A DNA stretch of 64,000 nucleotides, taken from the NCBI GenBank assembly GCA_948567375.1, contig OX419762.1:33671465-33735464 (forward strand), given 5' to 3'. This DNA is from Lunularia cruciata. Taxonomy: Eukaryota; Streptophyta; Marchantiopsida; Lunulariales; Lunulariaceae. The translations under genes were made by a program, and so were the position numbers. Of this stretch, positions 1 to 19,200 are shown piece after piece. Positions within the stretch are counted from its first letter, which is position 1, and every line of letters begins with the position of its first letter. The notes below the pieces were generated by a model. It saw only the letters and a list, made by a program, of their open reading frames with translations, did no database searches and had not been told where the DNA came from.

Positions 1-931
1 TCACAAGATCCTCTCAATAATGCACTTCTCTCTTCAGGTCTTCAATTACCCGACTTCTCACTACTGCCTCCGCTCACAGTACTTCTCTTTCCTCTTCATC
101 TCGGGTTATACCCTTCTTCAACTCCGAGTTTTCTTCTTCTAGTCTTGCTAATACCTGCAACACAATCTTCACCTCTGGACAAGTCAACTGCATCTCCTTC
201 TTCTTGTACTCTAGCTTTACTAACAATGGACACATAGCTTCTCGCAGGTACTCCACTCCATCACTGGCAACTACTTCAACCTGTGGAGTGATCTCCTTCT
301 TTACCTCTTCTTCTCCCAATACTCGCCTTCTCCTCTACAGTAGTCATATCGGAATAGACGCCTCACTTCCCGAGCTTTTGTGTGCTTCTTCCTTCACTGT
401 ACTTGGACCCGCTTTGTACTTTGCCTTACGTCTCGAGCAAACTCCTCTCTGCACTGTGATCTTTTTCTCTTCGGGCTCAGTTACTTCATCTTCCAACTGT
501 GTGTGGTCCTCGGCTTTGATTTCTTCCTACACTTCGTCTTCTTCTATAGCAGCTGGTGCCGATGCCATTTCTCCTCCTTCATCGCTATCGCTATTCGTAT
601 CTCCACTCTATAGCGTTAGCTCGGGCTCCTCCTCGTGTTCCGAGTCTTCAGTCTTAAGCTTGGCATCACCTTCCGAGTCTTCATCCTCTGACTCGATCAC
701 CACCATACCTCACCTTGGGTTACCTCTCCTGGTCTTCTAAGGTTTCTTTGTGTCTTCGGCTTTGCCCTGCCAACTTCTCTTCTTTGTATTCATGGTACTC
801 ACCTCAATCTCCACCTACTTCCCTGTCTTCATATAGTAGTCATCGGTGCTCCTGATTTGCAAGATGTATTGTTGCTCCTCAACATTGACCTCCTTTTGCA
901 AATCAAGATGGAAGTACGACACCATCCGAGT
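1..931 (-). pseudogene. Family-X protein, charged linker and start of coiled coil (copy A, frameshifted)
   Basis: Continues the copy A coding region in other frames after a frameshift near 931. Translation shows the Lys/Glu/Ser-rich linker and then the start of the coiled coil. An 81-residue open stretch at 319-74 carries EVKKEITPQVEVVASDGVEY and EEENSELKKGITRDEEEREV, matching the same place in copies B, D and E. Several in-frame stops and a frameshift mean it cannot make the full protein. The remainder lies beyond the window edge. Confidence 0.6.
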
Positions 932-1702
932 TCACTCCGCCAAGTTCAGCAAATTCAACCTGAGGTAGAAATGCGCTGCAAACAGCATGATGTAGTGTGG
1001 AGGCAATTTATCCCATAGATTCCACACCATTTGTCTCCTTCTCCCATGGAAACACCTTGCCCATTTAATTGGTTCTCTTGCAAATAACTTGTGAAAGAAC
1101 ACCGCTTGGTGTTTCATCACATACGTGGTTCTCTCTGGCTTTAGGATGGCCATCAGCGCACTCACAATTCCTCTCTTCACAGGGTCTTTGTAGCTCTCAA
1201 CTTTGTACCCATTCTTTGTCCGCTTGGACGAGAATGCATCTCTCACCTCTTGAGTTTCTTGAGCTATCTCTCCCTTCTCCAAGAACGTGGCCCCCTGCTC
1301 CGAGCCTACTTCCTTCCGGAGTACAAGTCTCCAATCCGACTCTGTCCAGCGAACCGGATTTCCTCTCTTCTCTTCCTCCTCGGGTCCATCAAGACACTTG
1401 CTCTTGATGATTTCTATCATGAAACCTAGAAAGCTCACATTCCAGTTCCATGCCAAGAAAGTGATCCAAAGTTGGCTCAAGACTTTGATCCTAGCAATCA
1501 CATCTAACCTCTGAATCACATGATTTCTCACTATGAATTCAGAGTTCTTCTTTCCTCCTCCCATCTCTTCTGCCTTCTCACTCTCTCTTGATTTCACTCT
1601 CGCGACTTCTCCCTTACACACTAACGCGATTCCAACTCTATATCCCTTCCCACTATCACCTGCAAGATGACTTCTCAACGGCAAAGGAAAATTACTCGAC
1701 AT
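932..1702 (-). pseudogene. Family-X protein, N-terminal domain (copy A)
   Basis: Open from the conserved start MSSNFPLPLRS at 1702 down to 932, about 257 residues. It carries the N-terminal domain shared by all copies: a basic start, the block ARIKVLSQLWITFLAWNWNV, then YKDPVKRGIVSALMAILKPE, MKHQAVFFHKLFA and HFYLRLNLLNLAE. The domain looks helical with regular hydrophobic spacing, and shows no DDE, RT, protease or helicase motif. I do not recognise it as a named family; the sense is of a retroelement gag-like or plant-transposon-associated domain, but that is only an impression. A TATA-like TATAAAAAT (minus strand, 1729-1721) lies just upstream. The frame breaks at about 931. The ATG twelve codons upstream (1738) overlaps the TATA box, so I prefer 1702. 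Confidence 0.65.
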
Positions 1703-2116
1703 TTCATCATTGCAAGTTTGATTTTTATAGAGTTGCACTTTCTTTGTCTTTCTTCACTTTGAGTTTCTACAGAGAAATCACACCTCCTACATGCACCTGT
1801 CACTGTCAATCAACCTTTGTACGTATGGGCCGCCGGTTTTTGAACGGTCCCTTCTTGAATTTCTCACCCCAACGAAAGGTTGTTATACTGTCTTTGCCTC
1901 GGGTTGAGCTCCTCCCAATACAAAGACACTTTACTTTAGGTTGTATGCTGACAGGGCATTTCTGAGTACTTTGCCTTATGACCCAAAGTCACTTTACTTT
2001 GGGTTTCATCCCGAAGACTCTTTTCTTTGCCTTCTTTGGCCATACATGCACAATTCGACTTCTCTATACACTTCTTCTTCTTTATTTTGAAAAAAACAAA
2101 AAATGTAGGCACCACA

Positions 2117-3348
2117 AAGATTGCACGAGTTGAAGTTGTTGGTGCAGGAGACGAGGAGGAGAAATACAAAGGAAAAAGACTTGAATGCCTTACTCATCAA
2201 TCTAAGAACTTGTGTAGATAGAAAGATATTGGAGGTAGAAGACAATATCACAATTAGATTAGACTTAGTAAAATTAGCGATAGATAAACTTTGGAAGGAT
2301 GTCAGAGCAAAAGCCAAAGTAGATAACATAGGAGTGCAGATGTCTTTGGAGTTACCATCAGAGATATTGGAGAAGAGTGGGTTGGGAGATAAGGAGTTAG
2401 ATAGATAACCCACTAGTGGAATTGCAGATTAGGAAAGAGAATTGTTAGAATTGGTAGAGGAATTAGGAGTTGTGAAACACAAGGATAGAGTAGTAGTGAG
2501 TGAATTTACTTCAGGATTGAAAGCCAAGGAGGAAGTAGACATCGGATCGGATTAGTAACAATTTTGAGATTTGAAGAGACAGATATGAAGAGGTGTATTG
2601 TCAGTTTGGATCTGCAGGTTAGAAGAGTTGTTGTAGAATGGTATAGTTGTTAGAATTGTCGTTTGCTTCACTATTTAAGAGTGGCATTTGTAGGAAAATG
2701 TTGTTCAATGCTCATAATTTCTGAGAATAGATAAAGCAAAGTGATGTGGAGCAGGCTCGTCGCTTGAGCTTGATTCCTAGTATCAACATTGTGTTTGTGT
2801 TTGTGAGTGTGTGGAGAATTTTGAAGTGCAAATCAATGTACTTGCTAGATGTTGGATTCCGCAACCTTGATCTTCACTCTATGTGTTTGATCTTTAATGT
2901 AGTGCAATTGAAGCAATGCCTTGACAGATCTAAGAGGAATTGTAGTGTTGGTAGTATTCTACATTTGTGAGTGCAGCGCAAAGTTGATGTGAAGCAATTT
3001 TGATCAAGGAAGTTGTGCCTTCAGTAGAGGAGTAGAACACAATTCTAAGGCAAAGTTGTTTTGTAGTGAAGTGCCATTTTTGGGAGAGCCTGAATCATCA
3101 TAATCAAGATTGTTTGGAAAGATTTGATGGAGTTTTGATTAAGGAGTGTTACTTCATAACGAGATTGCAAATCAATGCTTGCTACTCTCTTTTGGGTGTG
3201 GTTTCTACTTGAGAGATTAAAGACGCAACCAAGAAGAACTACATTGTGACATTTGACTTTGTATTTTGACATTTCTGACTAGTATCTCTACAAGAACAAA
3301 CTTTACTTACTTGATTACCACAAAAGTGATTTTTGCCAGGTTGTCACA
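2117..3348 (+). mobile_element. Family-X element, copy A' (3' third, interrupted by copy A)
   Basis: Plus-strand 3' part of a family-X element. It enters at 2117 inside the coiled-coil coding region and ends at 3348 with the family 3' terminus (...GATTACCACAAAAGTGAT...GTTGTCACA). Bases 2121-2408 encode the C-terminal end of the family protein, including DRKILEVEDNITIRLDLVKL; about 940 bases of 3' untranslated sequence follow. The 5' two thirds should lie left of the window, beyond copy A, which is nested in it. The bases after its end (CCTAC) begin the 3' part of the DNMT retrotransposon, so A' is itself inserted in that element. Confidence 0.8.
2121..2408 (+). pseudogene. Family-X protein, C-terminal end (copy A')
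   Basis: 95-residue open stretch equal to the C-terminal part of the family-X coiled coil: HELKLLVQETRRR, a DRKILEVEDNITIRLDLVKL block and GVQMSLELPSE near the end. The same blocks occur in copy B (about 7100-7400), D (17538-17203) and E (42700-42556). A TAG at 2406 closes it where copy B reads on for some 50 more codons. It is only a remnant, because the upstream part is cut off by copy A. Confidence 0.7.
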
Positions 3349-3429
3349 CCTACGCTGCTCTGCCAAGCCAAGGCTCATAATCCAGGTCAAACAATTTAGG
3401 TCCATAGCCTGACCTAACACCTAATGCCT

Positions 3430-4487
3430 AGATGCCTCTAACCCTACTAGAACAACGGTAATACCAATGCAAAAACTATCGCCCGCTCTCTCTCATTAGC
3501 ATTAGGCTCTACCAACTGCTATAACTATGAGTCCCAAACAATTTCAGGTCCTCCTTCTCAAAAAGCATGAGAGCATGGGAAATTCATGATTGTAGGAAAT
3601 GGGGCTCTAGGCTATCCAACTAGGTTCACCACTACCATAGGTGATCTATTAGCCACTACTACTGTCTGAGACTTACACCCAACATCCAAGACATCATCAA
3701 CAAGGATATGGTCAAGTCATTGAATCCCATTATAAGCACAGTGTAAAACCTCTCTAGGTAAGAGATTCATCCACCAAAGACAAAGACAATGAGCCCATGA
3801 TCCCACTCTGGCTGTATCTAACAATACAACAGGTCCTATCTAACAATGGACCTAATGTGTACTCACCACCACTTTGGTGCGAGAATCACCCATCAAAGGA
3901 ACATTCTCTAAAAGGTAAGCTGGAGAAATGGACTAATGAACCTAGAGATGTCACAGTATCTGTAACATCTCCCAAAACACACTAGAACAAGGATCTTGAA
4001 GACCCAAACCTTGGCCCGCACGTGTATGTCCTTGACATGGCCATCCAAAAATCACCAAGAGAATAGGCCCATGTTTCTCCAGATCATGCGCCCCTAGTAA
4101 GGAAATATTTGCTGGTAGGGCCTTTTGGTAACCTCCGACTGTTGACATCGGTAATAATTCTGGATACCAATAAGCCAAGTGTGCCATATGATGTAGAAAG
4201 ACTTGCCTAGCAATCTCATCTCTCTCTACATACAAGTACCTCTGTACTTGTATACCCGCCTGTAATACCGCAGCTAGTCCGGTGCTAATCCCACCAAACA
4301 ACTCCAATAGACATATCTCCTCTATTGGATACTGCCAAGCAATGAGTGTGGTATCCAGAGGTGTCAAAGTAATTGACTCTAGAGGCTCATCCTCACACTC
4401 ATCTCTTGATGGTACAAAGGCTCCACTCCAAGCCTGTTGCACCAATTGATCTGCATGCTGTTGTAACGCCTCCTCTAAACTCCACAA
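3430..4487 (-). pseudogene. C5-cytosine DNA methyltransferase domain inside a Ty3/gypsy retrotransposon
   Basis: C5-MTase fold enzymes transfer a methyl group from S-adenosylmethionine to cytosine C5. Seen here, in order: motif I as LLELFGGISTGL (about 4310-4275); an acidic motif II region YVERDEIA; motif IV as GWPCQGHTRAG with the catalytic Cys of PCQ at 4037-4035; a DP..S.FWE helix; then a frameshift near 3951. After the shift, motif VI appears as ENVPLMGDSRTK (ENV at 3908-3900), a motif VIII-like GSWAHCLCLWWMN (about 3810-3765), and a motif IX/X-like VEPNANERERA near 3450. So a nearly complete catalytic domain of about 300 residues was present before decay. It lies in frame downstream of gag and protease, not next to host exons. 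Retrotransposon-borne DNMTs are known from charophyte algae and dinoflagellates. Domain call is firm; activity of this copy is excluded by the shift and stops. Confidence 0.88.
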
Positions 4488-4556
4488 TAGAACATCCGAG
4501 GTAAATGGAAAAATCCCACTTGTACATTAAATCCGAGTGATCTCCTCTGGTACTAG

Positions 4557-4561
4557 AGTAT
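4557..4561. repeat. Target-site duplication AGTAT, left of copy B
   Basis: AGTAT at 4557-4561 immediately precedes the copy B 5' end (TGTGGTACCC) and is repeated exactly at 8338-8342 right after its 3' end (GTTGTCACA). Five bases is typical of LTR-retrotransposon integration. Confidence 0.85.
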
Positions 4562-4946
4562 TGTGGTACCCACATTTTTTGTTTATTTTGAAATGGAGAA
4601 GAAGAAGTATATAGAGAAGTTGGATTCCGCCTGTATGGCCAAAGAAGGCAAAGAAAAGAGTCTTTGGGATGAAACCCGAGGTAAAGTAGCTTCGGGTCAT
4701 AAGGCAAAGTACTTGGACTTGCCCTGTCAGCATACAACCCAAAGTAAGGAGTCTTCGTATTGGGGGGAGCTCAACCCAAGACAAAGATAGTGTAACAACC
4801 TTTCTTTGGGGCAAGAAATTCAAGAAGGGATCGTTCAAAACCGGCGGCCATACGCATGAAGTACAATTGACAGTGACAAGCGCATGCAAGTGGTGTGATT
4901 TCTTGGTAGAAACTTGAATTGAAGAGAGACGAAGAAGGCATGACTC

Positions 4947-4954
4947 TATAAAAA
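4947..4954 (+). promoter_or_regulatory. TATA box of family-X copy B
   Basis: TATAAAAA lies 27 bases before the conserved ATG at 4974. The same box is present at the same place in copies A (1729-1721, minus), D (19710-19704, minus) and E (44941-44934, minus). At usual TATA-to-start spacing, transcription would begin almost at the ATG, leaving essentially no 5' untranslated region. Confidence 0.5.
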
Positions 4955-4973
4955 TTGGGCTAATGACAAAGCA

Positions 4974-7563
4974 ATGTCAAGCAATTTTCCTTTGCCGTTG
5001 AGGAGTCGTCCTGCAAGAGATCGTGGGAAGGGAAGTAGAGTTGAAGACACGCTAGTGTGTAGAGGAGGATTCAAGAGAGTGAAACCAAGAGACAATGAGG
5101 AAGCAGGAAAGATGGAAGGAGGAAAAAAGTACTCCAAATTTTCAGTGCAAAATCATGCAATTCGGAGGTTAGATGTGATTGTGAGAATCAAAGTCTTGAG
5201 CCGACTTTGGATCACATTCTTGGCATGGAATTGGAATGTAAGTTTTCCAAGTTTCATGACTGAGATAATCGAGAGTAAGTGTCTTGATGGCCCCAAGGAA
5301 GAGGGGAAGAGAGGAAATCCGGCTTGCTAGACAGAATTGGATTGGAGATTAGTGCTCGGAAGAGAGGCAAGAGCGGAGCAAGTGCCACATTCTTGGGGAA
5401 GGGAGAGGTAGCCAAAGAAACCCAAGAAGTGAGGGATGCTTTCTCTTCAAAGAGAACAAAGAATGGGTATAAGGTCGAGAGTTACAAAGATCCAGTGAAG
5501 AGAGGGATCGTGAGTGCTCTCATGGCAATCCTGAAGCCGGAGAGGATGACTTATGTGATGAAACACCAAGCGGTGTTCTTCCATAAGATGTTTGCAGGAG
5601 AACCTATCAACTGAGCGAGGTGCTTCCATGGGAGGACAAGACAGATGGTGTGGAATTTGTGGGATAAGTCACCTCCACACTACATTGTGTCATTTGAAGC
5701 ACATTTCTACCTCGGGTTGAATTTGCTCAATTCAGCGGAGCGCAATAGAATGGTGTCTTACTTCCATCCCAACTTGAGAAGAGAAGTTGACACGGAGGAG
5801 CAACAATACATTCAAATCCAAAGCACGGATGAGTACTATGCGCAGACATGCAAGAGCGTGGGGGTAGAAGTGAGTACTCCAAAGTCAAAGAAGCGGAGTC
5901 GACAAGGAGAAGGCAAAGACATGGAGAAGACAAGACCTCGGAAGACCAGGAGAGGAAACCCAAGGAGAGGCATAGTGGTGATCAAGTCATCAGAGGAAGA
6001 CTTGGAAGGCAAAGCCGAGTGCAAGTCCAAAGACTCGAAACACAAGGAAGAACCAGAGCTCATACTGCAAAGTGGAGATACAAGTAGCGATAGTGATGAA
6101 GGTGGGGAGATGATGTCGGTACCTGCTGCCAAAGAAGAAGAAGTTTGGGTGGAGCTCAAAGAAGAAAATAATGCAAAGTTGGAGGATGAGGTACCCGAGC
6201 CAAAGGAGAGGAAGTTTACAATTCAGAGAGGAGTATGGTCAAGATGCAAGGCAAAGTGTGAAGCAGGTCTGAGCAAGGCAAAGGAAGAGGCAAATGCTAG
6301 CTCAAGGAGTGAAGCGTCTTTCCGATACAACGACTACAGAGAAGAAAGCAAGTATTGGGTGAAGAAGAGGTAAAGAAGGAGATCTCTATGCAAGGGGAAG
6401 TAGGTGCAAGTGATGGAGTGGAGTACCTACAAGAAATTGTGTGCCCGTTGTTGGTGAAGTTAGAGCACAAGAAGAAGGAGATGCAGTCAACATGTCCAGA
6501 GGTGAAGACTGTGTTGCAAGTTTTGGCAAGACTGGAAGAAGAGAACTCGGAGTTGAAGAAGAGTATAACCTGAGGCAAGGAGGAAAAGGAAGTACTGCGA
6601 GGGGATGCAGTAGTACAGAGTCAAGTTATTGAGGACTTGAAGAGAGAAGCGAGGTATCGAGAAGAACTTGTAAAGAAGAGTGACATAGCAAGGGAGAGAC
6701 AAGTAGTAGAGTATGAAATCTTGAAGCAGCAGTTTGCTAATTCTAGACTAGAAATTATCCATGCTATGGCAAGGGTAGCAGAGAAGGAACAAGAACTCAA
6801 TAGAGTGATGGAGAGTGTAGAAGAGAAGCAATTGTGGTAGCAGGAGTTGACAGTGAGATATAGGGAAGAAGAGCGATTACGAGAGTAATTTCGTAATCAA
6901 GAAGAGAAGTTTGTGCAAAAGGAGAAGGAGAAAGAAACTGTGAAAGCCAAGTTTGAGGTAGAGTTGGCAATGTACAAGGAAGATTGGCTTGCAGATCGGG
7001 AGCGTGAAAGGAAGATGAGATTGGAGCCATTGAAGGAGATCGTAATCAAGATGAATGCGATGCTGAGTACAAAAGCCAGTGTTTGTATTGAAGAGACAAG
7101 GCTGCACGAGTTGAAGAAGTTGGTGCAGGAGATGAGGAGGAGACATGCAAAGGATACAGACTTGAATGCTCTGTTAATTAGTCTTAGAACTTGGGTAGAT
7201 AGAAAGATATTGGAGGTCGAAGACAATATCACAATTAGATTAGATCTAGTGAAGTTAGAGAAAGATAAACTTCGGAAAGATGTTAGAGCCAAACTCGAAG
7301 TAGATGAAATAGGAGTGCAAATGTCTTTGGAGTTACCATTTGAGACATTAAAGAAGAGTGGGTCAGCAGATAAGGAGTTAGATAGATTACCCACTAGTGA
7401 AATTTTAGATAAGGAAAGAGATATTAGATTTGGTAGAAGATGTAGGAGTTATGAAACCCGAGGACAAAGTAGTAGGAAGTACAGTTACTTCAGGATTGGG
7501 TTTGAAAGCCGAGGAAGAAGTAGACATCGGATCGGATTAGAAACCAATTTGAGATTTAAATAG
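4974..7563 (+). pseudogene. Family-X coiled-coil protein (copy B, disrupted)
   Basis: Best view of the whole protein, about 850 residues before decay. Residues 1-~240: N-terminal domain starting MSSNFPLPLRSR, with the blocks RIKVLSRLWITFLAWNWNV, MKHQAVFFHKMFAGEPIN and HFYLGLNLLNSAERNRM. Next ~150 residues: a Lys/Glu/Ser linker with SSDSDEGGEMM and KR-rich runs like nuclear signals. The last ~430 residues are a long coiled coil (EYLQEIVCPLLVKLEHKKKE, REELVKKSDIARERQVVEYE, AKVEFELA-like heptads) ending near 7563. Disruptions: a frameshift near 5325, TGA for Trp at 5611, stops at 6571 and 6838, and a stop at 6886. The architecture (compact N-domain, acidic linker, coiled coil) suggests a structural or nucleic-acid-packaging role. 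No enzymatic motif is seen and I do not recognise the family. Confidence 0.65.
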
Positions 7564-8337
7564 GCAGATATGAAGAGGTGCATTGTCATTTCAGATTTGC
7601 AGGTTTGTAGAGTCATTAGGAAGAGGTATCTTAGGAAGATAACTGTTGATTGTTTCACTATTTAATAGTGGTATTCGCAGTATCATGTTGTTCAATGCTC
7701 ATTTTTTCTGAGAATAGATAAAGCAAAGTGCTATGAAGCAGTGCTCGTTGCTTAAGCTTGATTCCAAGTATCAACTTTGCAATTGTGTTTATGAGTGTGT
7801 GAAGAATTTCAAAGTGCAAGTCAGTGTGTTTGTTTGATGTTGGATTCCACAGCCTTGATCTTCATTTTGTGTGTTTGATCCTGAGTGAAGTGCAATCAAA
7901 GCAATGCCTTGATAGATCTGAGAAAAATTGTAGTGTTGGTAATATTCTGTATTTGTGAGTGCAGTGTGAGGTTGATGTGAAGCAATTTTGATCGAGGAAG
8001 TTGTGCCTTCAGTGGAGGGGTGGAACACAATTCTGAGTCGAAGTCATTTTGCAATGAAGTGCCACTTTTGAGAGAGTTTGAATCATCACAATCAAGATTG
8101 TTTGGAAAGAATTGATGGAGTTGTGATTAAGAAGTGTGAATTCATGACGAGACTGTGAATCAGTGCTTGTTACTCTCTTTTAGGTGTGGTTTCTACCTGA
8201 GAGATTAAAGATGCAACCAAGAAGAACTACATTGTTACTGTTTGACTTTGTATTTGACCAATTCTGACTCGTATCTTTGCGTGAATGAACTTTACTTACC
8301 TGATTACTGCAAAAGTGATATTTGGCGGGTTGTCACA
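7564..8337 (+). other. 3' untranslated region and 3' terminus of copy B
   Basis: About 770 bases without the main frame. They are conserved in copies A', C, D and E, including a block around 7860-7960 that is open in the sense direction in A', D and E and in the antisense direction in B, C and D. The end holds an inverted ACCCG...CGGGT-type pair (clearest in copy C, 10222-10253) before the final GTTGTCACA. Confidence 0.5.
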
Positions 8338-8347
8338 AGTATCTTTT

Positions 8348-10260
8348 TGTGGTACCCACATTTTTCATTTTGGACAAGTTTTGAAGAAAAAATGGCTTGC
8401 TGAAACCAAATTGAAACCAAATGGAGAAGAAATGAGTGCAAACTTGTGTTTTGATCAGACCCGAGAGAGTCTACATTGTGTGAGAGGAAGAAGGTCTTGG
8501 ACTGGATCAAACCCGAAGAAGTTTACTTTGTGTCAAAGGAGGGAAAAACTCGGATCATACGTTGAAGGAGTGCAAACTGGAAGGAGAAATAGAAGTTGCA
8601 GGTCAGGATTCTTGCGGGGGCCATATCTCAATGCACACAAGTCCAAATCAAGCATGCTATATCTCGTTGGAAGCGTCTCGTTCAGGGCTTTTTGTTACAA
8701 CCAAAATCGCAAAGTTTGAAGGTCTATAGAAGAAGTTACAAGCATTTGAAGTTTCGGGAGTAGATGTGAAGAGTAGTTTGGTGTCTTTAGGTCAATGTGA
8801 CTTCGGACTGCGTACTTCGGACTTTGGGTTTACATGACTTCGGGTCTAAGGACTTTGCCTCAAGACTAAGATGACCGACTAAATCCAAGGAAGTCGGACT
8901 TTGGAGTGCAGTGAAGGTGACTTCGGGAATCTTGCGGGAAGCATGAGAGGAAATTAGAGTAGGGAAAAAAGATAGTTATGATACCCATGATTTCAATTTC
9001 AGTTCTAATTGAAGATGGAACATGAATTGAAGGAGAAGTAGCAATAGTGAATAAACCCAAAGTGCAAGATCAGACTATAAGTGTCTTTGGGTCAGTTACA
9101 TGAGTGATTAAGGGAAAATAGGTTACAAATTGAAGGTGTAGATAGTGTATTCATGCTTTCAATTACAATTCTTGACGATGACACAGTAGAATTAGTAAAG
9201 GAATTGATAGTAGTTAGACCTAAAGTAAGAGAGATAAGAGTGAAGGTGTCTTCGGATTTGACATTTGACACCTTAAAGAAGAGTGGGTCGGGAGATAGAG
9301 ATTTAGAAGGCTTAATTATGATAGGAATTGTAGATCAAGAAGGAGAAGTGTTAGAATTAGTAGAGGAATTGAGAGTTGTGAAACCCGAGGACAAAATATT
9401 AGGAAGAAAAGTTACTTTGGGTTCGGGTTTGAATAAAGAAAAAGAAGGAGACATCGGATCGGAGTAGAAACCGATTTGAGATTTGAATAGATAAATATGA
9501 AGAGTTGCATTGTCATTTCGGATCTGTAGGTTAGAAGAGTTGTTGTAGAACAGTATAGTTGTTAGAACTATCAATTTGTTCACTATTTAAGAGTGGCATT
9601 TGCAGTCAGATGTTGTTTAGTGTTCATAATTTCTGAGAATAGATAAAGCAAAGTGCTGTGAAGCAATGCTTGTCGCTTGAGCTTGATTCCAAGTATCAAC
9701 GTTGTACTTGTGTTTGTGAGTGTATGAAGAAATTTGAAGTGCAAGTCAATGTGCTTGTTGGATGTTGGATTCTGTAGCCTTGATCTTCATTCTGTGTGTT
9801 TGATCTTGAGTGAAGTGCAATCGGAGCAATGCCTTGACAGATCTGAGAGGAATTGTAGTGTTGGTAGTATTCTACATTTGTGAGTGCAGTGCAAAGTTGA
9901 TGTGAAGCAATTTCAATCAAGGAATTTGTGCCTTTAGTGGAGGGGTGGAACACAATTCTGAGGCAAAGTTGTTTTGCAGTGAAGTGCCATTTTTGGGAGA
10001 GCCTGAATCATCACAATCAAGATTGTTTGGAAAGATTTGATGGAGTTGTGATTAAGGAGTGTGAAATTCATGACAAGACTACGAGTCAGTGCTTGTTACT
10101 CTCTTTTGGGTGTGGTTTCTACTTGAGAGATTAAAGACGCAACCAAGAAGAACTAAATTGTTACTTTGCTTTGTATTTGGAAGTTTCTGACTTGTATCTC
10201 TACGGGAACGAACTTTACTTACCCGATTACCGCAAAAGTGATATTTGCCGGGTTGTCACA
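8348..10260 (+). mobile_element. Family-X element, copy C (short variant with different interior, 1913 bp)
   Basis: Begins TGTGGTACCCACATTTTTC and ends CCGGGTTGTCACA like copy B, and its 3' half (from about 9150) aligns with the C-terminal coding end and 3' region of copy B. The 5' half (8370-9100) is unrelated to the N-domain and linker of the other copies; it contains a 95-codon ORF at 8432-8719 without a recognised domain, and an array of ACTTCGG-type repeats at about 8770-8940. Flanking pentamers CTTTT (8343-8347) and CCTTT (10261-10265) differ at one base, acceptable for an old duplication. It sits inside the DNMT retrotransposon and probably landed before copy B. Confidence 0.75.
9153..9467 (+). 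pseudogene. Family-X protein C-terminal tail variant (copy C)
   Basis: 104 residues matching the last part of the family protein: FDTLKKSGSGDRDLEGL corresponds to FETLKKSGSADKELDRL in copy B, and GSGLNKEKEGDIGSE to the GFESRGRSRHRIG region read in a different frame. The ORF is intact but too short for the coiled coil, and its first ~30 residues have no counterpart. Whether copy C ever encoded its own protein is unclear. Confidence 0.4.
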
Positions 10261-11100
10261 CCTTTGCATGGGTGTTCCCCTCCAACAAGTCACCAAGCCA
10301 AGTAGCTGCACCATTGAAAGCTAAAATTGATGCTGCCATGGTCCCAGACTATAGTGAGCCAAGACTGCCACTACTGAAGCGTACTGGTAGGCGATATACC
10401 CATCTCTTGCCAGATTGCCAACCTAGTCTATAGGAGGTTGTCTCCCCCCAATAGTCAATATTGAAACCCATGGGGTATAACACTGCTCCTCCAACTAGCA
10501 CATCATATGACTCAGCTATTGTCGTAACAGCCTAAGCTCTCACCACCAAGCTATCAATTGGATGACCAAGCTGAACCTAACCAACAAGCTCCCCACATGT
10601 GATATACTGTGTCAAACCACCACCTAGAGATGTCTAGATCTAAAATGGACACCTCTCCACATTGGTCTCCCGTAACTGCAGACTGACTACTACAACCTTC
10701 TCCAACATAAGGGACTGCGTACCACAGTCTAACAAGACTCTCTATGGTGTATAGACCTTCCTGAAGGTCCCACCAAACGGAAAATCCTCCTCTGGTTATC
10801 CAACATGACAACATCAGGTGTGAACCGCACTCTCTCAAAGGCTGGTCTAGTTGGCAACTCCTCCAATCTAGCCATTATTGCTTGCCATAAACCACTGGTT
10901 GCTAAACAGATTCCATGCTCCTCAACCAAGTCAGCTCCACTTCTAACCACCTTTGCTCTAGTAGTAGGAACCGCATCATCCCTACTCTCATAAAGCATGG
11001 CAGCCAACCAAAACATTGGGGCTAAGTCAACTCCTAATATAAACATATCACTGGCTGAAAACAAAGGGCACCGCATAATTGGCTGAGCCGCCTCCAACAT
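10261..11100 (-). pseudogene. Retroviral-type aspartic protease region of the DNMT element
   Basis: Reads on the minus strand from FERVRFTPDVVMLDNQRR through a protease active-site region seen as LDCGTQSLML (about 10727-10698), where DSG/DTG would be expected, to AESYDVLVGGAVLYPMGFN (about 10520-10460). YDVLVGG corresponds to the hydrophobic-Gly motif near the end of the protease fold. Three or more in-frame TAG codons and the DSG-to-DCG change show it is dead. Downstream the frame passes through the copy C/B insertion site into the methyltransferase. The N-terminal 120 residues (11100-10729) are an open connector following the zinc knuckle. Confidence 0.65.
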
Positions 11101-11573
11101 TGTGCTAGACTCAATCTATATAGTAGCAAGTAGCTGACTAGCAAGTAGTTGATCATGCACTCCATCACCACCTACCACACTTGCACTAGGATGTCTAGGA
11201 GCCATGGATGTTGTCTGCAATGCCTCAAATAGCATGAAAGATTAGGGAAGTCTAACCTGTCTCCCAACCTCTCCTCTTTGTGGGTCCAACTTCACTGATG
11301 CTCCTCTAGGCTCTAGAGCACGTACTACACTCCTAGTCACTGTTGTAGATGCATCCACCTGTGTTGCTCCGCACATGAAGTCCAAAGCATCTCTATCACC
11401 AACATATGAAGTGGAAGCCTCAGCACTTGAATCTGATCTCCTCTAAGCAATGGCCATACTAGCCAATCTCTGCTCCAACGACACAATCCGAGTAGCCATA
11501 GCTTTATCAAAAGTAAGGGCAAGTACTACACCCCTATTAGGTGTAGATCCTCTACCACCTTGTTCTCCATGAA

Positions 11574-13034
11574 CTAGAGCTCCTCTACTGCTTGCCATAG
11601 TAGCCCTACCACTCCGTAACTCCAGGTGTAGGTCAAAGCATCGGTCACTAGTGTGACCAAATTTGTGGCAATGCTCACATTGCCTCTATGCTGGCTATGA
11701 TGCACCCAAGGTATCAGGTCCACTACCCTGAGTACACTCTCTCCGATGGTGAGGTCCACCACAAGTCCAACAAGCAACACTACTACTCATTGGCTCCTGT
11801 TGACCCAAAAATGAAGGTAAGGGTCTCTAGCTCCACTAGGTCCTCCACTCGCTCCACTAGGTCCTCTACTCACTCCATAGGATTTGGGCTATCCACCTTG
11901 TCCTCAAAAACCAACTAGGCATGGTGCATTTTGTTGCACTCTAGAAGAAGTAACAATTGTGCATGAGGTCTCCCTACCAAATCCAGATGTCACCACCCTC
12001 TCCTCCACCATGTTTAGCTCAATATGCTCAACCAAACCAAAGACTAGTACCAAAGTAGGCAAAGTAGCCTATAATAATGTAGCATCACAAACTCTATGTC
12101 GCAACTCCCTGTCAAGTATCCCATACCAAAACTGGACTGCTTGGGCCTCAATAACTCCTTGAGTGAAACTGATCAGCCGCCCCATGCGAGTGTATGCTTC
12201 ACGTATGCTCTTTCCAACCTTCTATTTGAACTCTTGCAAGCTCCTCAACTTGTCAGTCCGCACTCCCTGGTAGTTCTACCTCAAACACTAGAAGAACTCC
12301 ACCATGAGGTTAAACCCCAATACCACACCACCTCTTGTAGTGGTACCTCCACTCATTGTAGCACTATTTCTAGCTAGTGTACCTCCACTAGCTCCACCAA
12401 CACTACTTGAGCTAGAACTCATAGGTACAACCAATCTACTCTTGGCCACCAAGCTTGAAGTGATAGAGACATAGTTTAGAGACCAATACTGTCTCCATAA
12501 CTCAATCTCTTCCAAATGAGCTCTCTTGAACTCATGGTAGTCATCCATTGGTGGGCCCTCCAAATGCTGAAACAACCCTTTCCATGCTATGAAGAGCGTA
12601 AACAAAGCCGGGTTCCGCATCTATTGCAAATCACACCAACTATCAAACTCTTGGATGAAGTCATCCAACTCAATGGTACCCATTGTACCAGAGTAACGCC
12701 TAGGGCCTTTGGAGGCCCCATAAATCTTGTCCATGTCTCACAACAATAGTGTGGACACACCAAGTGCACTCTTAACTAAATCAGCTCCTATGTCAAACTC
12801 CAACTCAGAGTCAATCTCCTCCCTCACTGGGACTTGAGATATAGACTGATACGGAGCACCACTCCGAGTAAATCCATTGCATACTATAGGGCTAACTCCT
12901 CTAGAATCCCCAATGAACTCCGTCATGACAAAGTAACCGCAACTGCAACTGCAAACCAGAACCACAAATTGCAACCGCAAGTCGCAACCACAAGTACCCC
13001 ACCAAGTGCAAACACCACCAAGTGCCAATACCAA
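11574..13034 (-). pseudogene. Ty3/gypsy gag of the DNMT element, with CCHC zinc knuckle
   Basis: Gag forms the retrotransposon particle and binds its RNA. The capsid part is at 12700-12288, with FIQEFDSWCDLQ, a TAG replacing an expected Gln codon, then NPALFTLFIAWKGLFQHLEG and DYHEFKRAHLEE. A Ser/Gly/Thr-rich stretch follows. The CCHC knuckle CEHCHKFGHTSDRC is intact at 11678-11638. A short tandem repeat lies on the plus strand at about 11835-11880 (CTCCACTAGGTCCTC units). Reading continues in shifted frames to the protease. The N-terminal 98 residues (13034-12738) are open, low-complexity and probably part of the same gag. Confidence 0.7.
11638..11678 (-). other. CCHC zinc knuckle of gag
   Basis: Minus-strand CEHCHKFGHTSDRC keeps the exact C-X2-C-X4-H-X4-C spacing of retroviral nucleocapsid knuckles, which bind single-stranded nucleic acid. 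Confidence 0.85.
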
Positions 13035-13349
13035 CTAAGCACTACCCACTAATGTAACTCTAACCAAGATAACTACACTAGGAGAAAGTGCAACTTGTAA
13101 CCTACCATCACAACACGCACTCTCACGGTCTGCAAGTCATCACTTCCTACCTCACCAAAGAGAAACAAAGATAGTCTGACTAGTCATCACTCTAGCCTCA
13201 CTACCAAGAGCATACCAGAGCACCAATGCTCAAAATTCAAGGCACCTCACACAAACATGGTGCACAAACAAGAAGTAGAGAATGGATAGGATCTAATCAC
13301 AAGAAATCTAAACAAAAACCCTCCATCTCATAAAACAACATGGGACTGA

Positions 13350-13362
13350 CTCTGTCACCATT
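13350..13362 (-). promoter_or_regulatory. Primer binding site of the DNMT element
   Basis: Minus-strand TGGTGACAGAGTC resembles the initiator-Met tRNA complement TGGTATCAGAGC found in the chromovirus at 32787, with a few changes. It lies two bases past the likely LTR end, where a primer site belongs. Confidence 0.55.
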
Positions 13363-13364
13363 TG

Positions 13365-14811
13365 GTATTTGACATAAGAGAAGTTTGTATCTAAGTCTTA
13401 AGCTATCAAGATCACCAAGAATGGGATCAAACTGGCTCTCCTAGCCAAAGCTACAAGTGTTTAGATAATAGTGGCACAGTCACTAGGACAACAAGTGAGG
13501 GTGGACCAATTGGCTAGGGCACTAGTCTAGGAACAAGAGATTTAGGGGTCAAACCCTATTGTGCACAATCTAGCAGGATGGGCATATTTTTCCAACCAAT
13601 GACCAAGATCTACTCTAAACTAGCTAGCCTCACGCCAGCAAGCTGGCTTGCTAGCCCTTCGTAGCCTCTCATAGCCCACAACCCACAACCCTATGCCTCA
13701 AAGCCTTGAAATACCAAAATTCAGCCAAATGACAACTTGCAACAAATTGGTCATGCCTTCACCTCTTGAGCTCAAAATCACAACCACTGCTCAAAAATTG
13801 CTTCTTCTGTGCTTAAAAATTGGCCAGCACTTCCACACATTGCCAAATCTACAATGAGCTTCTGCACACCGGGGAAAAACTGAACTTCAATTGAGCTACC
13901 AACGATCTACCATGCTTGGACATACCACCAACACTCAAAGTTCTTGCACCCAATTTCCCCCTGATTTCACTTCTTTGATGTAATCAGATCGTTTACAACT
14001 CTCAAATACACTCAACTCAGATCAATACTTGATCTATCACTCTATAAACTGCCAACAATTGGGCGCTAATTACAGTCAACCCACATCCACTCTAGCTAAG
14101 AGAATCCAGGTGACGCTCACCGACCTCTATCCACCATAGTTAAGAACTCAAAGGCTCAACATCAAAGAAGTCAGCTCTTTGGAGCTACACTTCCAAGGTA
14201 TACTCTTGATTTCAACCTAGGTCTCATCCCAATGGTCCCGTTGATGGCACACCCGACGGCATGGATGGTGTAAGTGACGGTGGGCCCCACCATGAAGTCA
14301 GTACCCTAAACACAAAATCTGACCATCGGAAGTAGTCTATGAGTAACTACCAAAATGCCTCTAACTACTAACATTGGAACTCCAATGTCCGAGCAAATAG
14401 ATGCAACACTACAAATGGCGTGACAAAACTCTCAAGTGAGGGAAAGTCCAAATTCCTAGTTTGGTCTTGGCTTGGGTATTTATAAGTAACTAGGTACAAG
14501 ACTCCCAGGAGCTTCTAAGGAAAGTTCTTTCTAAGAGCCATCTTACTTGGAATGCAAGCTAAACTAGGTTTTTACTTGGTGTACAAGCTAAGCTAGCAAT
14601 AAGCTTGGCATACAAGTTATTCTACCCTTAGAAAGTTTCTAGAAGTAATCACCAAGAAGCTTCCTATGTGCTTCTAGAATATTCTACCCATAAGCTTTCT
14701 CTATGCTTCTAGCACATTCTTAGGCTAGTTGTACTTCTTTTTGCTATATTTAGCTTAGACTAATAACTCATTAGCTTCTACTAACTTATCTATTAACTCC
14801 GTATTATTACA
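13365..14811 (-). repeat. 5' LTR of the DNMT element (about 1.45 kb)
   Basis: On the minus strand it starts TGTAATAATACGG at 14811 and probably ends ...ATACCA at 13365, just before the primer site. A TATA box (TATAAATA, 14484-14477) lies about 330 bases in. The first ~450 bases align by eye with the chromovirus LTRs at 32429 and 61878, including AGCTAATGAGTTA, the heat-shock-type block and CACTTGAGAG; the remaining ~1 kb is unique to this LTR. The partner 3' LTR is not in the window, so the end is inferred. Confidence 0.6.
14672..14684. promoter_or_regulatory. Heat-shock-element core in the DNMT-element LTR
   Basis: TTCTAGAATATTC is three perfect alternating pentamers (TTCnnGAAnnTTC), the binding consensus of heat-shock factor trimers, located upstream of the TATA box. 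The same block is found in the other LTRs of this window. Confidence 0.55.
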
Positions 14812-16282
14812 ACAAGGCTGGTTTTCCTTATCATCTTGAGCAAGAACTTTAAAATAGTGACTTAATTCCTTTGGAGTCTATCCTCCTTGCAAGAGATGCA
14901 TTTGATTTCATGGGTCCGCTTGGATCTTAAACTCATCTCCTTGAACATGTGCTTGTTAGATCTAGCTTTCCTCTTATTGTCACTCAATTTCTACCTTCAT
15001 TTTTCAATCTCTAATTGAGCATACTCAACTTATATCTTCATCAAAGTCTTCTCTATTTTCCTCATGTTAATGGCTTTTAGTTTAGTGAGATGTAACCTCT
15101 CCCTAGATTATATATATTTTTCCTTAAGCATGATGATCTTTGCTAAATCATGAGACATAGATATGTTTGGTGACATTATTGATACGCCTTTGCAATAGTG
15201 CAATTTCTTCCCTTGGGTCACTTTCTCCATCTTTGTCATTGAAAGCTCCCTTGAACCCATCCCTTGTTTAGACTAGTGGAGGTGGTGCAACAAAAGGTGA
15301 CTCCTTTAGTGTGCTTTCTTGTATTCCATTTTCCAAGCCTTCTATGTAAACATTAGCTAAACCTTCCATCCCTTGGATGTTTGGGACAAGTTAAAAGCAT
15401 GAGTTGAGAAGCACCATCTTTGGAGGAGAGGAGAATTGATTGCTAGGCAATATGTTTTCTTTAAACTATGGAAACTGCTCCACTCCTTGACCTATGCATG
15501 TGACATGAATTGGAGTTCAATATCCTAAACTTACCATAGCATGTGGCATAATTTTTACCTAAATCCCAAACATGTCTCTATTCTAGCAAAATAGGACACA
15601 TTTCATTCAATTTTTCACCTATGGTTCTCCATTCTTTGCCATACTCTTTCTTTGTGAGCCTTCTCTAGTTGACTTATTTTTCAACTCCCAAGCTTCCTTG
15701 TAAGATTTCATGTACCTTAGCCATTTCTTGTAAAGTTGAGCATCTATCATAATAGCTAGAAATCCTTACCTCTCACAAACCAAAAATGTGGCCATGAAAC
15801 TAAAAGTTGTGGGCTTATGAATGAAAATTTTTGCAATTACCACCATGAATCTATGCAAAATGTTTTGGATCTGTCAAATATTCAAAGATCTGTCCAAAAT
15901 GGTGGTTTACTATTTGGAACTATTGTCCTCCTTTGCTTTGCTAAGAACAAAAGACACCATCCTCAATAATTCTCCAAAATTCCAATCTGAGGGTCTTGGT
16001 TTTGAGTATGATGTGAGTCTAAAATGGTGTCACGACCTAGAGAAGGAAATTGGATGTCTCTATTGCCAATTTTTCTCTACCCTTTTGCATTGGAATTTCT
16101 TGACCCTCAATCAATTCTTGGTTGCCACTACTGGTGGTGTATAACTATTCATAACTCTCAAATTTCCTTGCCACGCACTAAGTCTACCGACAAAAATACC
16201 ACCAAAATTTGAAATGACCGTAACCACATGCTTAGTGAAAGGAGTAGCTTGTAGCAAACACAGTCAAAGATCTAGTTCAAGA
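14812..16282. other. Unassigned decayed sequence between the DNMT element and copy D
   Basis: No intact gene. Minus-strand translation shows broken stretches such as EGLANVYIEGLENGIQEST and EEIALLQRRI (15400-15200) with stops, reminiscent of old retroelement polyprotein or coiled coil but not identifiable. The plus-strand 107-residue ORF at 15821-16144 shows no motif. Confidence 0.3.
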
Positions 16283-16287
16283 GTAGG
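16283..16287. repeat. Target-site duplication GTAGG, left of copy D
   Basis: GTAGG at 16283-16287 is repeated exactly at 20092-20096, flanking the two termini of copy D. Confidence 0.88.
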
Positions 16288-19200
16288 TGTGACAACCCGG
16301 CAAATATCACTTCTGCGGTAATCGGGTAAGTAAAGTTCGTTCCCGTAGAGATACTAGTCATAAATGTCCAAATACAAAGTCAAACGGTAACAATGCAGTT
16401 CTTCTTGGTTGCTTCTTTTATCTCTCAAGTAGAAACCACACCCAGAAGAGAGTAACAAGCACTGATTCGCAATCTTGTCACAAATTAACACTCCTTAATC
16501 ACAACTCCTTCAATTCTTTCCAAACAATCTTGATTGTGATGATTCAAGCTCTCCCAAAAATGGCACTTCACTGCAAAATGACTTCACCTCAGAATTGTGT
16601 TCCACCCCTCCACTGAAGGCACAACTTCCTCAATCAAAATTGCTTCACATCAACCTTGCACTGCACTCACAAATGTAGAATACTACCAACACTACAATTC
16701 CTCTCAGATCTGTCAAGGCATTGCCCCGATTGCACTTCACTCAAGATCAAACACACAGAATGAAGATCAAGGTTGTAGAATCCAACATCCAACAAGCACA
16801 CTAACTTGCACTCAAATTTCTCCAAACACTCACAAACACAATTGAAAAGTTGATACTCGGAATCAAGCTTAAGCGAGCTTGATTCCAAGCACTGCTTCAT
16901 AGCACTTTGCGTTATCTATTCTCAAAAATTATGAGCACTGAATAACATGATACTGCAAATGCCACTCTTAAGTAGTGAACAAATTGATAGTTCTAACAAC
17001 TATACTGTTTTACAACAACTCTTCTAACCTGCGATCCAAAATGACAATGCACCTCTTCATATCTGCCTCTTCAAATCTCAAAATTGTTACTACTCCGATC
17101 CGATGTCTACTTGGTCATCGGCTTACAAACCCAAACCCAAAGTAATTGTACTTCCTACTACTCTATCCTCGGGTTTCACAACTTCTAATTCTTCTACCAG
17201 ATCTAGCAATTCTCTTTCCCGACCCACTCTTCTCCAATGTCTGAATTTCCACTAGTGGGTAACTTATCTAACTCCTTATCTCCCGACCCACTCTTCTCCA
17301 ATGTCTCCGATGGTAACTCCAAAGACATCTGTACTCCTACTTCATCTACCTTGGGTTTTGCTCTAACATCTTTCCGAAGTTTGTCTATCTCCAACTTTAC
17401 TAAGTCTAATCTAATCGTGATATTATCTTCTACCTCTAATATCTTCCTATCTACACGAGTCCTGAGACTTATCAACAGCGCATTCAAATTTGTATCTTTC
17501 GCATGTCTTTGCCTCGTCTCCTGCACCAACAATTTCAACTCCTACAGCCTCGTTTCTTCAATTCAAATGCTGGCCTTTGTACTTAACATCGCATTCATCC
17601 TGAGGACAATCTCCTTCAATGGCTCCAATAGCATCTTTCTTTCTTGCTCTCGATCTACAAGCCAATCCTCCTTGTACATCGCCAACTCTGCTTTGAACTC
17701 GGCTTTCACCGTTTCCTTCTCCTTCTCCTTCTATACAACCTTCTCTTCTTGATTACGAAGTAACTCTCGTAATCTCTCTTCTTCTCTATATCGTGCTGCT
17801 AACTCCCTTTGCCAGAGTTGCTTCTTCTCTTCTACACTCTCCATGACTCTATTGAGCTCTTGTTCCTTTGCCGATACCCTTGCCATAGCATGGATAAGTT
17901 CTACCCTTGAATCAGCAAACTGCTGCTTCAAAATCTCATACTCTGCTATTTGTCTTTCCCTCGCTATGTAACTCTTCTTAACAAGCTCTTCTCAATATCT
18001 CTCTTCTCTCTGCAAGTCTTCAATTACCTGAGTCTTCACTACTGCCTCCGCTCGTAGTACTTCACTTTCCTCCTCACCTTGGGTTATGATTTTCTTCAAC
18101 GAGTTCTCTTCTTCTAATCTTCTTTTGCTAAGACCTACAAAACAGTCTTCACTTTTAGACAAGTTGACTGCATTTCCTTCTTCTTGTGCTCCAATTTCAC
18201 CAGCAGTGGACACATGATCTCCCGCAAGTACTCTACTCCATTACTCGCTACTACCTCCTCTTGCGGAGCCATCTCCCTTCTCACTTCTATTCCCCCCAAT
18301 ACTCGCCTTCGTCCCTGCAGTCTTTGTATCGGAACTGACGCCTCGCTTCCCGAGCTTTCATTCACTTCTTCTTTTACTTTACTCGGACTTGCCTCACACT
18401 TTGCCTTGCGTCTTAAGCGGACTTCCCTCTGAATCGCAATCGTCTTTTCTTCAGCCTCAAGTATTTCATCCTCCAACTTTGTGTTGTCCTCGGCCTCAAT
18501 CTCTGCTTGCACTTCTTCTTCTTCCTTGGCAATTTCTGGCACCGACATCATTTCTCCACCTTCATCGCTGTCACTACTTGTATCTCCACTTTGTAGCATT
18601 AGCTTGGGTTCCTCCTTGCGTTCTGAGTCTTTGGATTGCACTTGGCTTCACCTTTCGAGTCTTCGTCTTCCAACTTGATCACCACCATTCCTTGCCTTGG
18701 GTTTCCTCTCCTGGTCTTCCAAGGTTTTGTCTTGTCTTTGGCTTCGGCCTGCCGACTTTGCTTCTTCAATTTTGGAGTACTCGCTTCTATCTCCATATTC
18801 TTCCCCGTCTTCTTGTAGTACTCGTCTGTGCTTTGGATTTGAAGGATGTATTGTTGCTCCTCTACATCGACTTCTCTTCTTAAGTCGGAGTGGAAGTGCG
18901 ACACCATTTGAGCTCGCTCCGCCAAGTTCAGCAAATTCAACCCGAGGTAGAAGTGCGCTACAAACGGCACAATGTAATGTGGAGGCGATTTATCCCGCAA
19001 ATTCCACACCATTTGTCGTGTTCTTCCATGGAAGCACCTCGCCCAATTTATTGGGTCTCCTGCAAAAAATTTGTGAAAGAACACCGCTTGGTGTTTCATC
19101 ACATAGGTTGTTCTCTCCGGCTTCAGGATTGCTATCAGAGCACTCACAATCCCCCTCTTGATAGGATCTTTATAGCTCTTTACTTTGTATCCATTCTTTG

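Follow-up and report, generated by a model that had tools for sequence, protein, structure and literature searches.

A predicted DNMT3-type cytosine methyltransferase carried by a Ty3/gypsy-type retroelement family of the liverwort Lunularia cruciata

The decayed element and its methyltransferase domain

The stretch of DNA analysed here, hereafter the window, comprises 64,000 nucleotides of the liverwort Lunularia cruciata (assembly GCA_948567375.1, contig OX419762.1, positions 33,671,465 to 33,735,464) and contains on its minus strand a decayed Ty3/gypsy-type retroelement carrying a cytosine-5 DNA methyltransferase (DNMT) domain in addition to gag and protease (Table 1). The original prediction, made from the letters of the window, located C5-methyltransferase motifs I, IV, VI and VIII-like on the minus strand of 3430-4487, and all of them are present there in a single frame, although this interval contains 13 stops. 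The gag with its CCHC knuckle and the protease had also been assigned to the same element and frame as the methyltransferase. The common element was recovered and the common frame was not: the knuckle reads in minus-strand frame 1, the DNMT in frame 2, with the insertion 4562-10260 between them, and the gag (13034-10756) is itself distributed over two shifted frames. Compared with L040, a copy of the same family located elsewhere in the genome, the DNMT region displays 80% identity by tblastn (3471-4565) and 88.6% by blastn (3349-4561). The half of the element encoding reverse transcriptase (RT), RNase H and integrase resumes left of the window and retains the TAG-CAG-CCA junction, indicating that the DNMT of the window was part of a once complete element; element coordinates 5784-5788 are present on both sides of the second insertion, forming a 5-bp overlap.

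Taken alone, the open 191-amino-acid stretch of the window remains below the cut-off of the Pfam profile PF00145 (E=0.031). The profile check proposed with the original prediction thus fails on the window but succeeds on copies with long frames, including L040 and L043. Since these copies pass and L040 retrieves DNMT3A from the PDB (E 2.5e-11), the match of the window is not a chance one. The same stretch matches 149 other places of the genome with 84-88% identity (E 5e-111 to 5e-104; 150 places scored among 10,390 candidates, one being the window's own). This genome, supposed in the original prediction to be much larger, has a size of 566 Mb and is not giant.

DNMT3A and DNMT3B are the nearest solved structures both by sequence and by fold, the best of five AlphaFold2 models of the domain having a pLDDT of 88.2 (range 59.8-88.2), and enzymes of the DRM, DNMT2 or bacterial kinds are more distant from the domain than DNMT3 is. 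Motifs I, IV (with the Cys), VI (ENV), VIII and X, in the usual numbering, occur in unrearranged order. The motif residues are invariant in an alignment of 13 rows (L040 and 12 relatives), and the catalytic ones remain so even in rows that are 34-70% identical to L040. By sequence and predicted fold, the domain of the window is thus a real, decayed C5-methyltransferase of the DNMT3 type. It differs from the catalytic domain of mammalian DNMT3A and DNMT3B in being fused behind gag and protease, and Pfam lists neither ADD nor PWWP on L040 and L043 at E<=0.1.

A domain in this position could instead act on RNA or contribute nucleic-acid binding to the particle, for example by depositing 5-methylcytosine on the packaged genome or on the primer tRNA. 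Its location on the Gag side, together with the CCHC knuckle, would agree with such a role, and RNA methylation is raised for LINE-borne enzymes in PMC5890265. We nevertheless consider this improbable, the nearest structures being those of de novo DNA methyltransferases, while DNMT2-type tRNA methyltransferases reach no better than E ~0.05.

Methyltransferase pieces of the host were encountered at separate loci: DNMT3-like exons (L001, L004), a CMT-like exon (L003) and an open frame of 404 amino acids with rearranged motifs, of the DRM type (L002). Judging from their motifs, these four loci presumably belong to the families named.

Table 1. Features of the methyltransferase-bearing element in the window and of its continuation to the left
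Feature	Position	Strand	Remarks
Decayed DNMT-bearing Ty3/gypsy element	3349..14425	(-)	5' end at 14425, truncated at 3349, nested insertion inside; blastn with copy L040
Terminal repeat A1, element 5' end	13981..14425	(-)	Starts TGTCACGCC; 82% identity to L040 A1 over 450 columns
Gag part 1	11835..13034	(-)	Residues 1-398 of L040 frame; tblastn 80%
Gag part 2 with CCHC knuckle, towards protease	10756..11826	(-)	Residues 394-754; tblastn 79.5%
CCHC knuckle	11638..11679	(-)	CEHCHKFGHTSDRC; minus-strand frame 1
Aspartic protease region	10262..10783	(-)	Residues 746-919, frame-shifted relative to gag; tblastn 74.7%; L040 has LLDSGAQ at 762-768
Nested insertion separating protease from DNMT	4562..10260		Repeat DNA akin to 1-3348; L040 matches break at 4561 and restart at 10261; self-comparison of 1-18000
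DNMT3-type C5-methyltransferase domain (predicted), decayed	3349..4367	(-)	About residues 985-1325 of L040 frame; limits by linear mapping
Motif I	4275..4310	(-)	LLELFGGISTGL
Motif IV, catalytic Cys	4014..4046	(-)	GWPCQGHTRAG; Cys invariant in 13 aligned rows
Motif VI	3888..3917	(-)	YLLENVPLMG; Glu-Asn invariant in 13 aligned rows
Motif VIII-like	3789..3812	(-)	ARVGSWAH (L040: DAARVGSRAHRLR)
NERERA stretch	3480..3497	(-)	Same frame as motifs I, IV, VI and VIII
Second nested insertion, right part; separates DNMT from RT	1..3348		Whole insertion ~7.5 kb, starts left of the window
RT-RNaseH-integrase continuation (L067), left of the window	C12:33667256 -> 33664536		91% identity to L040 5784-8506

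Organization of the element family

As stated in the original prediction, the methyltransferase belongs to a plant Ty3/gypsy element. Many copies of it are joined to gag-protease and to RT-integrase. Twelve loci, chosen for their long open frames, were read. The element has a length of ~9.9 kb. Its first open reading frame (ORF1) encodes, in a single frame in the better-kept copies, a gag with a CCHC knuckle, a protease with the motif LLDSGAQ and the complete DNMT, which makes up about a quarter of this first protein; it amounts to ~1,330 amino acids if it starts as in the Marchantia proteins, the open frame of L040 reaching 1,428. ORF2, in frame with ORF1 past a UAG, encodes RT, RNase H, an H2C2 and DDE integrase and a C-terminal PHD finger (1,037 amino acids in L047, by Pfam). 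ORF1 is fully open in five of the twelve copies (L039-L043) and ORF2 in two (L046, L047). The succession of gag-CCHC, protease, RT, RNase H and DDE integrase is that of Ty3/gypsy elements (Metaviridae), as deduced from Pfam on L047 ORF2 and from the CCHC and DSG motifs, the Retrotrans_gag match being weak (E 0.056). In the one copy examined for it, the integrase is followed by a PHD finger (E 6.5e-11) and no chromodomain is listed there at E<=0.1, which separates the element from chromoviruses. The finger is closest to those of CHD4, KMT2D, KMT2C (MLL3), PHF12, DPF3, KAT6A and KDM5B, several of which read the tail of histone H3.

The ends of the element combine features of different retroelement types. 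All eight copies for which the sequence covers the two ends are arranged as A1 (449 bp), coding region, B1 (107 bp), GC, A2 and B2, so that the copies are not bounded by two identical full long terminal repeats; no match to the B repeat was found on the 5' side in any of the twelve loci. This A-coding-B-A-B arrangement of split direct repeats is DIRS-like. The tyrosine recombinase and the lack of target duplication of DIRS elements are replaced here by an rve integrase and by identical 4-bp target duplications flanking 8/8 copies, as expected of a DDE integrase making short duplications. The joint GACA-GC-TGTC contains two bases that the integrated ends lack, and the repeat ends would fit a joined or circular complementary DNA (cDNA) intermediate opened at the B-GC-A palindrome. 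A1 and A2 are 96.4-99.3% identical (one A2 with a deletion was compared over 295 columns), and the insertions therefore look recent.

The two frames meet at UAG-CAG-CCA, ORF1 ending with the UAG. The junction was searched for with a pattern allowing up to 7 or 9 mismatches, L017 giving no match. TAG occupies it in 50/50 distinct copies where it could be located, and 47 of these (40/41 and 7/9) have the context UAG-CAR-YYA, the type-I leaky stop of tobamovirus work. Genome-wide, TAG is kept at 637 of the 649 sites with exact flanks; the YYA codon is not CCA at 144/781 sites, and the 18 variants among the first rows listed, on C1, are all still YYA. ORF1 proteins of Marchantia (P0003, P0005) and of environmental origin (P0006, P0016, P0017, P0020, P0022) also terminate between DNMT and RT. 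UAG-CAG-CCA is likely to be a leaky stop, the context of which would allow translation by read-through.

Abundance, selection and relatives

A 30-mer covering the catalytic motif of the DNMT occurs at 2,745 places of the genome and one from the RT at 4,079 (up to 3 mismatches in each case), while their reversed controls occur at none. Were every RT place a full 9.9-kb copy, the family would occupy ~40 Mb, or 7% of the genome, which is an upper estimate. A DNMT-less subfamily was sought at eight RT places without the exact DNMT motif, and all eight had a colinear DNMT of 92-98% identity.

Selection on the DNMT was evaluated in 42 copies, from which the copy of the window and three duplicate loci were excluded; the loci were mostly picked by their similarity to the window piece or for long frames, and hence do not form a random sample. 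Variants found in one copy are near neutral (156 amino-acid-changing, N, to 71 synonymous, S; 0.89 of expectation), whereas amino-acid changes are depleted among common variants, defined as those shared by roughly 10% of the copies or more (29 N : 34 S, 0.34; singletons versus common, p=0.0017). The protease behaves alike (common variants 0.28, 41 copies), and the ratios of shared variants are lower in gag (0.22) and RT-RNaseH (0.31; 12 copies each). Shared variants of the integrase are not depleted (6 N : 2 S, 1.15), the numbers from its 11 copies being small.

Relatives were retrieved by protein searches, each scoring nearly 8,000 candidates that shared most words. The DNMT search gave 49 matches, including Marchantia polymorpha polyproteins, Sphagnum fallax, Closterium and environmental proteins. 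Among the best 120 of 210 in the profile search were further Calypogeia fissa, Riccia sorocarpa, Marchantia paleacea and Sphagnum troendelagicum, and among the best 120 of 368 in the integrase-PHD search Haematococcus lacustris and Volvox. Of the relatives listed with a name, liverworts are the closest. A search for relatives among viral contigs, in which records near the genome of the window may be absent, gave four pattern matches, none of which was confirmed. According to a local rule, the 286 proteins comprised 12 of type I (DNMT before RT), 62 of type II (DNMT following RT or RNase H, or immediately ahead of the integrase), 135 with a DNMT only, 41 with RT and integrase but no in-frame DNMT, and 36 others.

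A tree of RT-RNaseH-integrase sequences (69 rows) splits at an SH-aLRT of 100 into a side with 25 type II rows and five without in-frame DNMT, and a side with six type I rows and 33 ORF2 rows that, as in the Lunularia element, lack a DNMT in frame. In a DNMT tree of 73 rows, made of selected full domains and two partial outgroups (both trees being quick searches), all retroelement DNMTs are apart from human DNMT3A and from the host DNMT3-like exon (99); a group supported at 97 unites 42 of the 43 type II rows with one DNMT-only row, whereas support for the type I side is weak (81) and the remaining type II row, P0027, is loose. Type II elements (Haematococcus P0245, Volvox P0222 in part, environmental) share with the liverwort element the PHD-bearing integrase and a homologous DNMT, but have the latter between RNase H and integrase instead of before RT. 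The trees fit a single capture followed by a move of the DNMT; two independent captures may also account for them.

These data also bear on whether an ordinary host DNMT gene, or a host-gene fragment lying by chance beside a retrotransposon, could explain the locus. The weak Pfam score of the open piece of the window would be in line with it. The motif, however, is found at thousands of places with one layout wherever it was read, the host DNMT3-like, DRM and CMT pieces lie at separate loci, and the DNMT3-like piece does not group with the element. The tree thus goes against the refuting case named with the original prediction: the domain stands apart from human DNMT3A and from the host exon, both partial, and it is not part of a host gene with introns. 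With the colinear DNMTs at the RT places, this explanation is ruled out for practical purposes.

DNMT-bearing gypsy retrotransposons are already known as a kind from KnitGypsy-Dnmt3 of the alga Klebsormidium nitens. As described in PMC5890265, this element has in common with the liverwort one the Gypsy domain set, an unrearranged Dnmt3-type domain inside the element, DIRS-like A-coding-B-A-B repeats and purifying selection on the domain. It differs by having the DNMT in the Pol polyprotein ORF, whereas the liverwort one lies between protease and RT, 5' of the UAG, and by fewer copies, compared with thousands of motif places in Lunularia. This agreement in layout and in DNMT3 type makes kinship with the Klebsormidium capture plausible; no Klebsormidium name appeared among the relatives listed (DNMT search; best 120 of 210 and of 368), most rows being without a name. 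SymbioDIRS-Dnmt3 and SymbioLINE-Dnmt, reported in PMC5890265 along with hundreds of DNMTs in Symbiodinium, are also DNMT-bearing retrotransposons, the former likewise in two domain orders, but they are respectively a DIRS element with a tyrosine recombinase and a LINE, in contrast to the DDE integrase and 4-bp target duplications of the liverwort element.

In the open PMC literature, outside which most subscription papers and preprints lie, we found no description of a gypsy element with a DNMT from any liverwort or moss, and none of DNMT-bearing elements with a PHD finger or a leaky stop. Within the literature searched, four features are thus new: the land-plant hosts, the number of copies, the position of the DNMT on the Gag side of a likely leaky stop, and the PHD finger. 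The parts seen of the Marchantia methylome paper (PMC5784723) mention five DNMTs, none described as transposon-borne, and the word methyltransferase is absent from the main text of the Lunularia genome paper (PMC9985172).

Some bryophyte database proteins named DNA methyltransferase are transposon pieces. P0075, P0093, P0003 and P0158 (Sphagnum, Marchantia) bear the name DNA (cytosine-5-)-methyltransferase, yet are members of the DNMT-gypsy family, and would inflate counts of host DNMTs. P0056, a DNMT of the family with 51% identity, is filed under a Candidatus Obscuribacterales metagenome-assembled genome on a 2.4-kb contig and is probably plant DNA in the bin. P0174, an ORF2 relative extending from RT to PHD (1,083 amino acids), comes from a EukProt transcriptome, so that some relative is transcribed.

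A possible role of the methyltransferase in the replication cycle

The sequences directly show the order of the coding regions, the context of the stop, the repeats, the target duplication, the number of motif places and the selection. Beyond this, we propose with moderate confidence that the methyltransferase works on the element's own copies. Read-through of the UAG would extend the gag-protease-DNMT protein by RT, RNase H, DDE integrase and PHD finger. Being encoded 5' of the stop, the DNMT would be made at Gag-level dosage, in step with Gag and exceeding RT and integrase, and would be packaged into the particle, where it would most likely methylate the new cDNA of the element, the copy then reaching chromatin pre-marked. 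The integrase inserts this copy with the 4-bp duplication, possibly at sites chosen by the PHD finger reading histone H3, and the ends would be regenerated from the split repeats. Activity of the methyltransferase on DNA is predicted from sequence.

Several observations weigh against this proposal. The search for intact copies suggested with the original prediction did find RT and integrase downstream in many copies, but both frames are fully open in 0/12 of the fetched ones; stops interrupt the DNMT in 27/42 copies and frameshift indels in 6/42, and DNMT variants present in a few copies are near neutral (76 N : 40 S, 0.77). Regarding the stop, no RNA structure is apparent 3' of it in the one copy folded (z 0.37). 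The codon following CCA, GTC, is changed at 134/771 sites and TAG at 12/649 (p 4e-25), but GTC belongs to CHG contexts, whose mutation rate in this genome is several times higher; sequence context thus explains most of this contrast, which is weak evidence and was set aside as proof of the stop. Marchantia gene models P0007, P0008, P0011 and P0014 join DNMT to RT, perhaps via predicted introns, and no stop occurs in Closterium P0049, P0101 and P0114, Riccia P0152 and environmental P0185, P0187 and P0229, so that it is not general but characterizes some of the type I elements. Self-methylation, raised in the original prediction, left no significant first-strand footprint in the mutation spectrum, C>T and G>A differing significantly in no class. 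At CpG the two are balanced (60 and 57 singletons of 293 each), and the small G>A excesses at shared CHG changes (103/515 vs 77/486, p 0.10) and at single changes in other contexts (125/2062 vs 49/1100, p 0.06) would point the opposite way. CpG and CHG sites change often on both strands, in the manner of host CG and CHG methylation, and the element is not CpG-depleted, with an observed/expected ratio of 0.41-0.50 in the 12 loci against 0.38 in the window. Finally, the Klebsormidium enzyme was inactive in yeast, a result that its authors deem inconclusive (PMC5890265).

The interrupted copies and the near-neutral variants of middling frequency would also suit a functionless passenger, carried because it is harmless to the element, as would the five rows without same-frame DNMT in the type II clade of the RT tree. 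The depletion of amino-acid changes among common variants disfavours it, as do the invariance of the catalytic residues in distant relatives and the retention of the DNMT at 8/8 RT places tested, and we regard it as very unlikely. Action in trans has a somewhat better, though still small, chance: the enzyme, free of particles or made without assembly, would methylate host loci, disturb host silencing and aid spread. In favour of such action speak the higher yield that a leaky stop would give the DNMT and the thousands of copies, and effects on the Symbiodinium methylome are speculated upon in PMC5890265. In a family with thousands of members, however, only weak selection is expected on a trans-acting enzyme, whereas the depletion of common variants resembles that of the protease (0.34 and 0.28).

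Hosts silence retroelements of this kind by cytosine methylation, and an element that keeps a methyltransferase of its own, under selection in a family of thousands, runs counter to expectation and opens the question of why a mobile element carries the mark used for its silencing. If the proposal is true, de novo methylation is part of the life cycle of a land-plant retroelement, which the relatives carried by Marchantia place in an experimentally accessible group. More tentatively, the DNMT could be a core enzyme of an ancient green plant and algal retroelement lineage with PHD-tailed DDE integrase and split repeats, predating the separation into forms with the DNMT before RT (liverworts, mosses, Closterium) and before the integrase (Haematococcus, Volvox). 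It would be needed in each round of replication, and in the liverwort form the Gag-level DNMT would mark the cDNA for a chromatin-reading integrase. According to PMC9985172, bursts of Ty3/Gypsy elements brought the Lunularia genome to nearly double the size found in its relatives, a growth on which the DNMT element may bear.

The sense strand of L040 (114-9901) is asymmetric, with CpA at 1.53 and TpG at 1.12 in the 9.9-kb locus, and CAG at 2.23 and CTG at 0.83 in the element. It contrasts with the symmetry of recent C>T and G>A changes at CpG, and codon use may be its cause.

Elsewhere in the window, 1-3348, 4562-10260 and 16280-18000 contain repeats related to one another. Two of these lie within the DNMT element as nested insertions, and some are mutually inverted; ends read ...TTGTCACA at 3348, 8337 and 10260. 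Pieces of other, distant RT genes are located at 34989-35255 (+) and 47834-48504 (+), with respectively 38% and 29-31% identity to ORF2.
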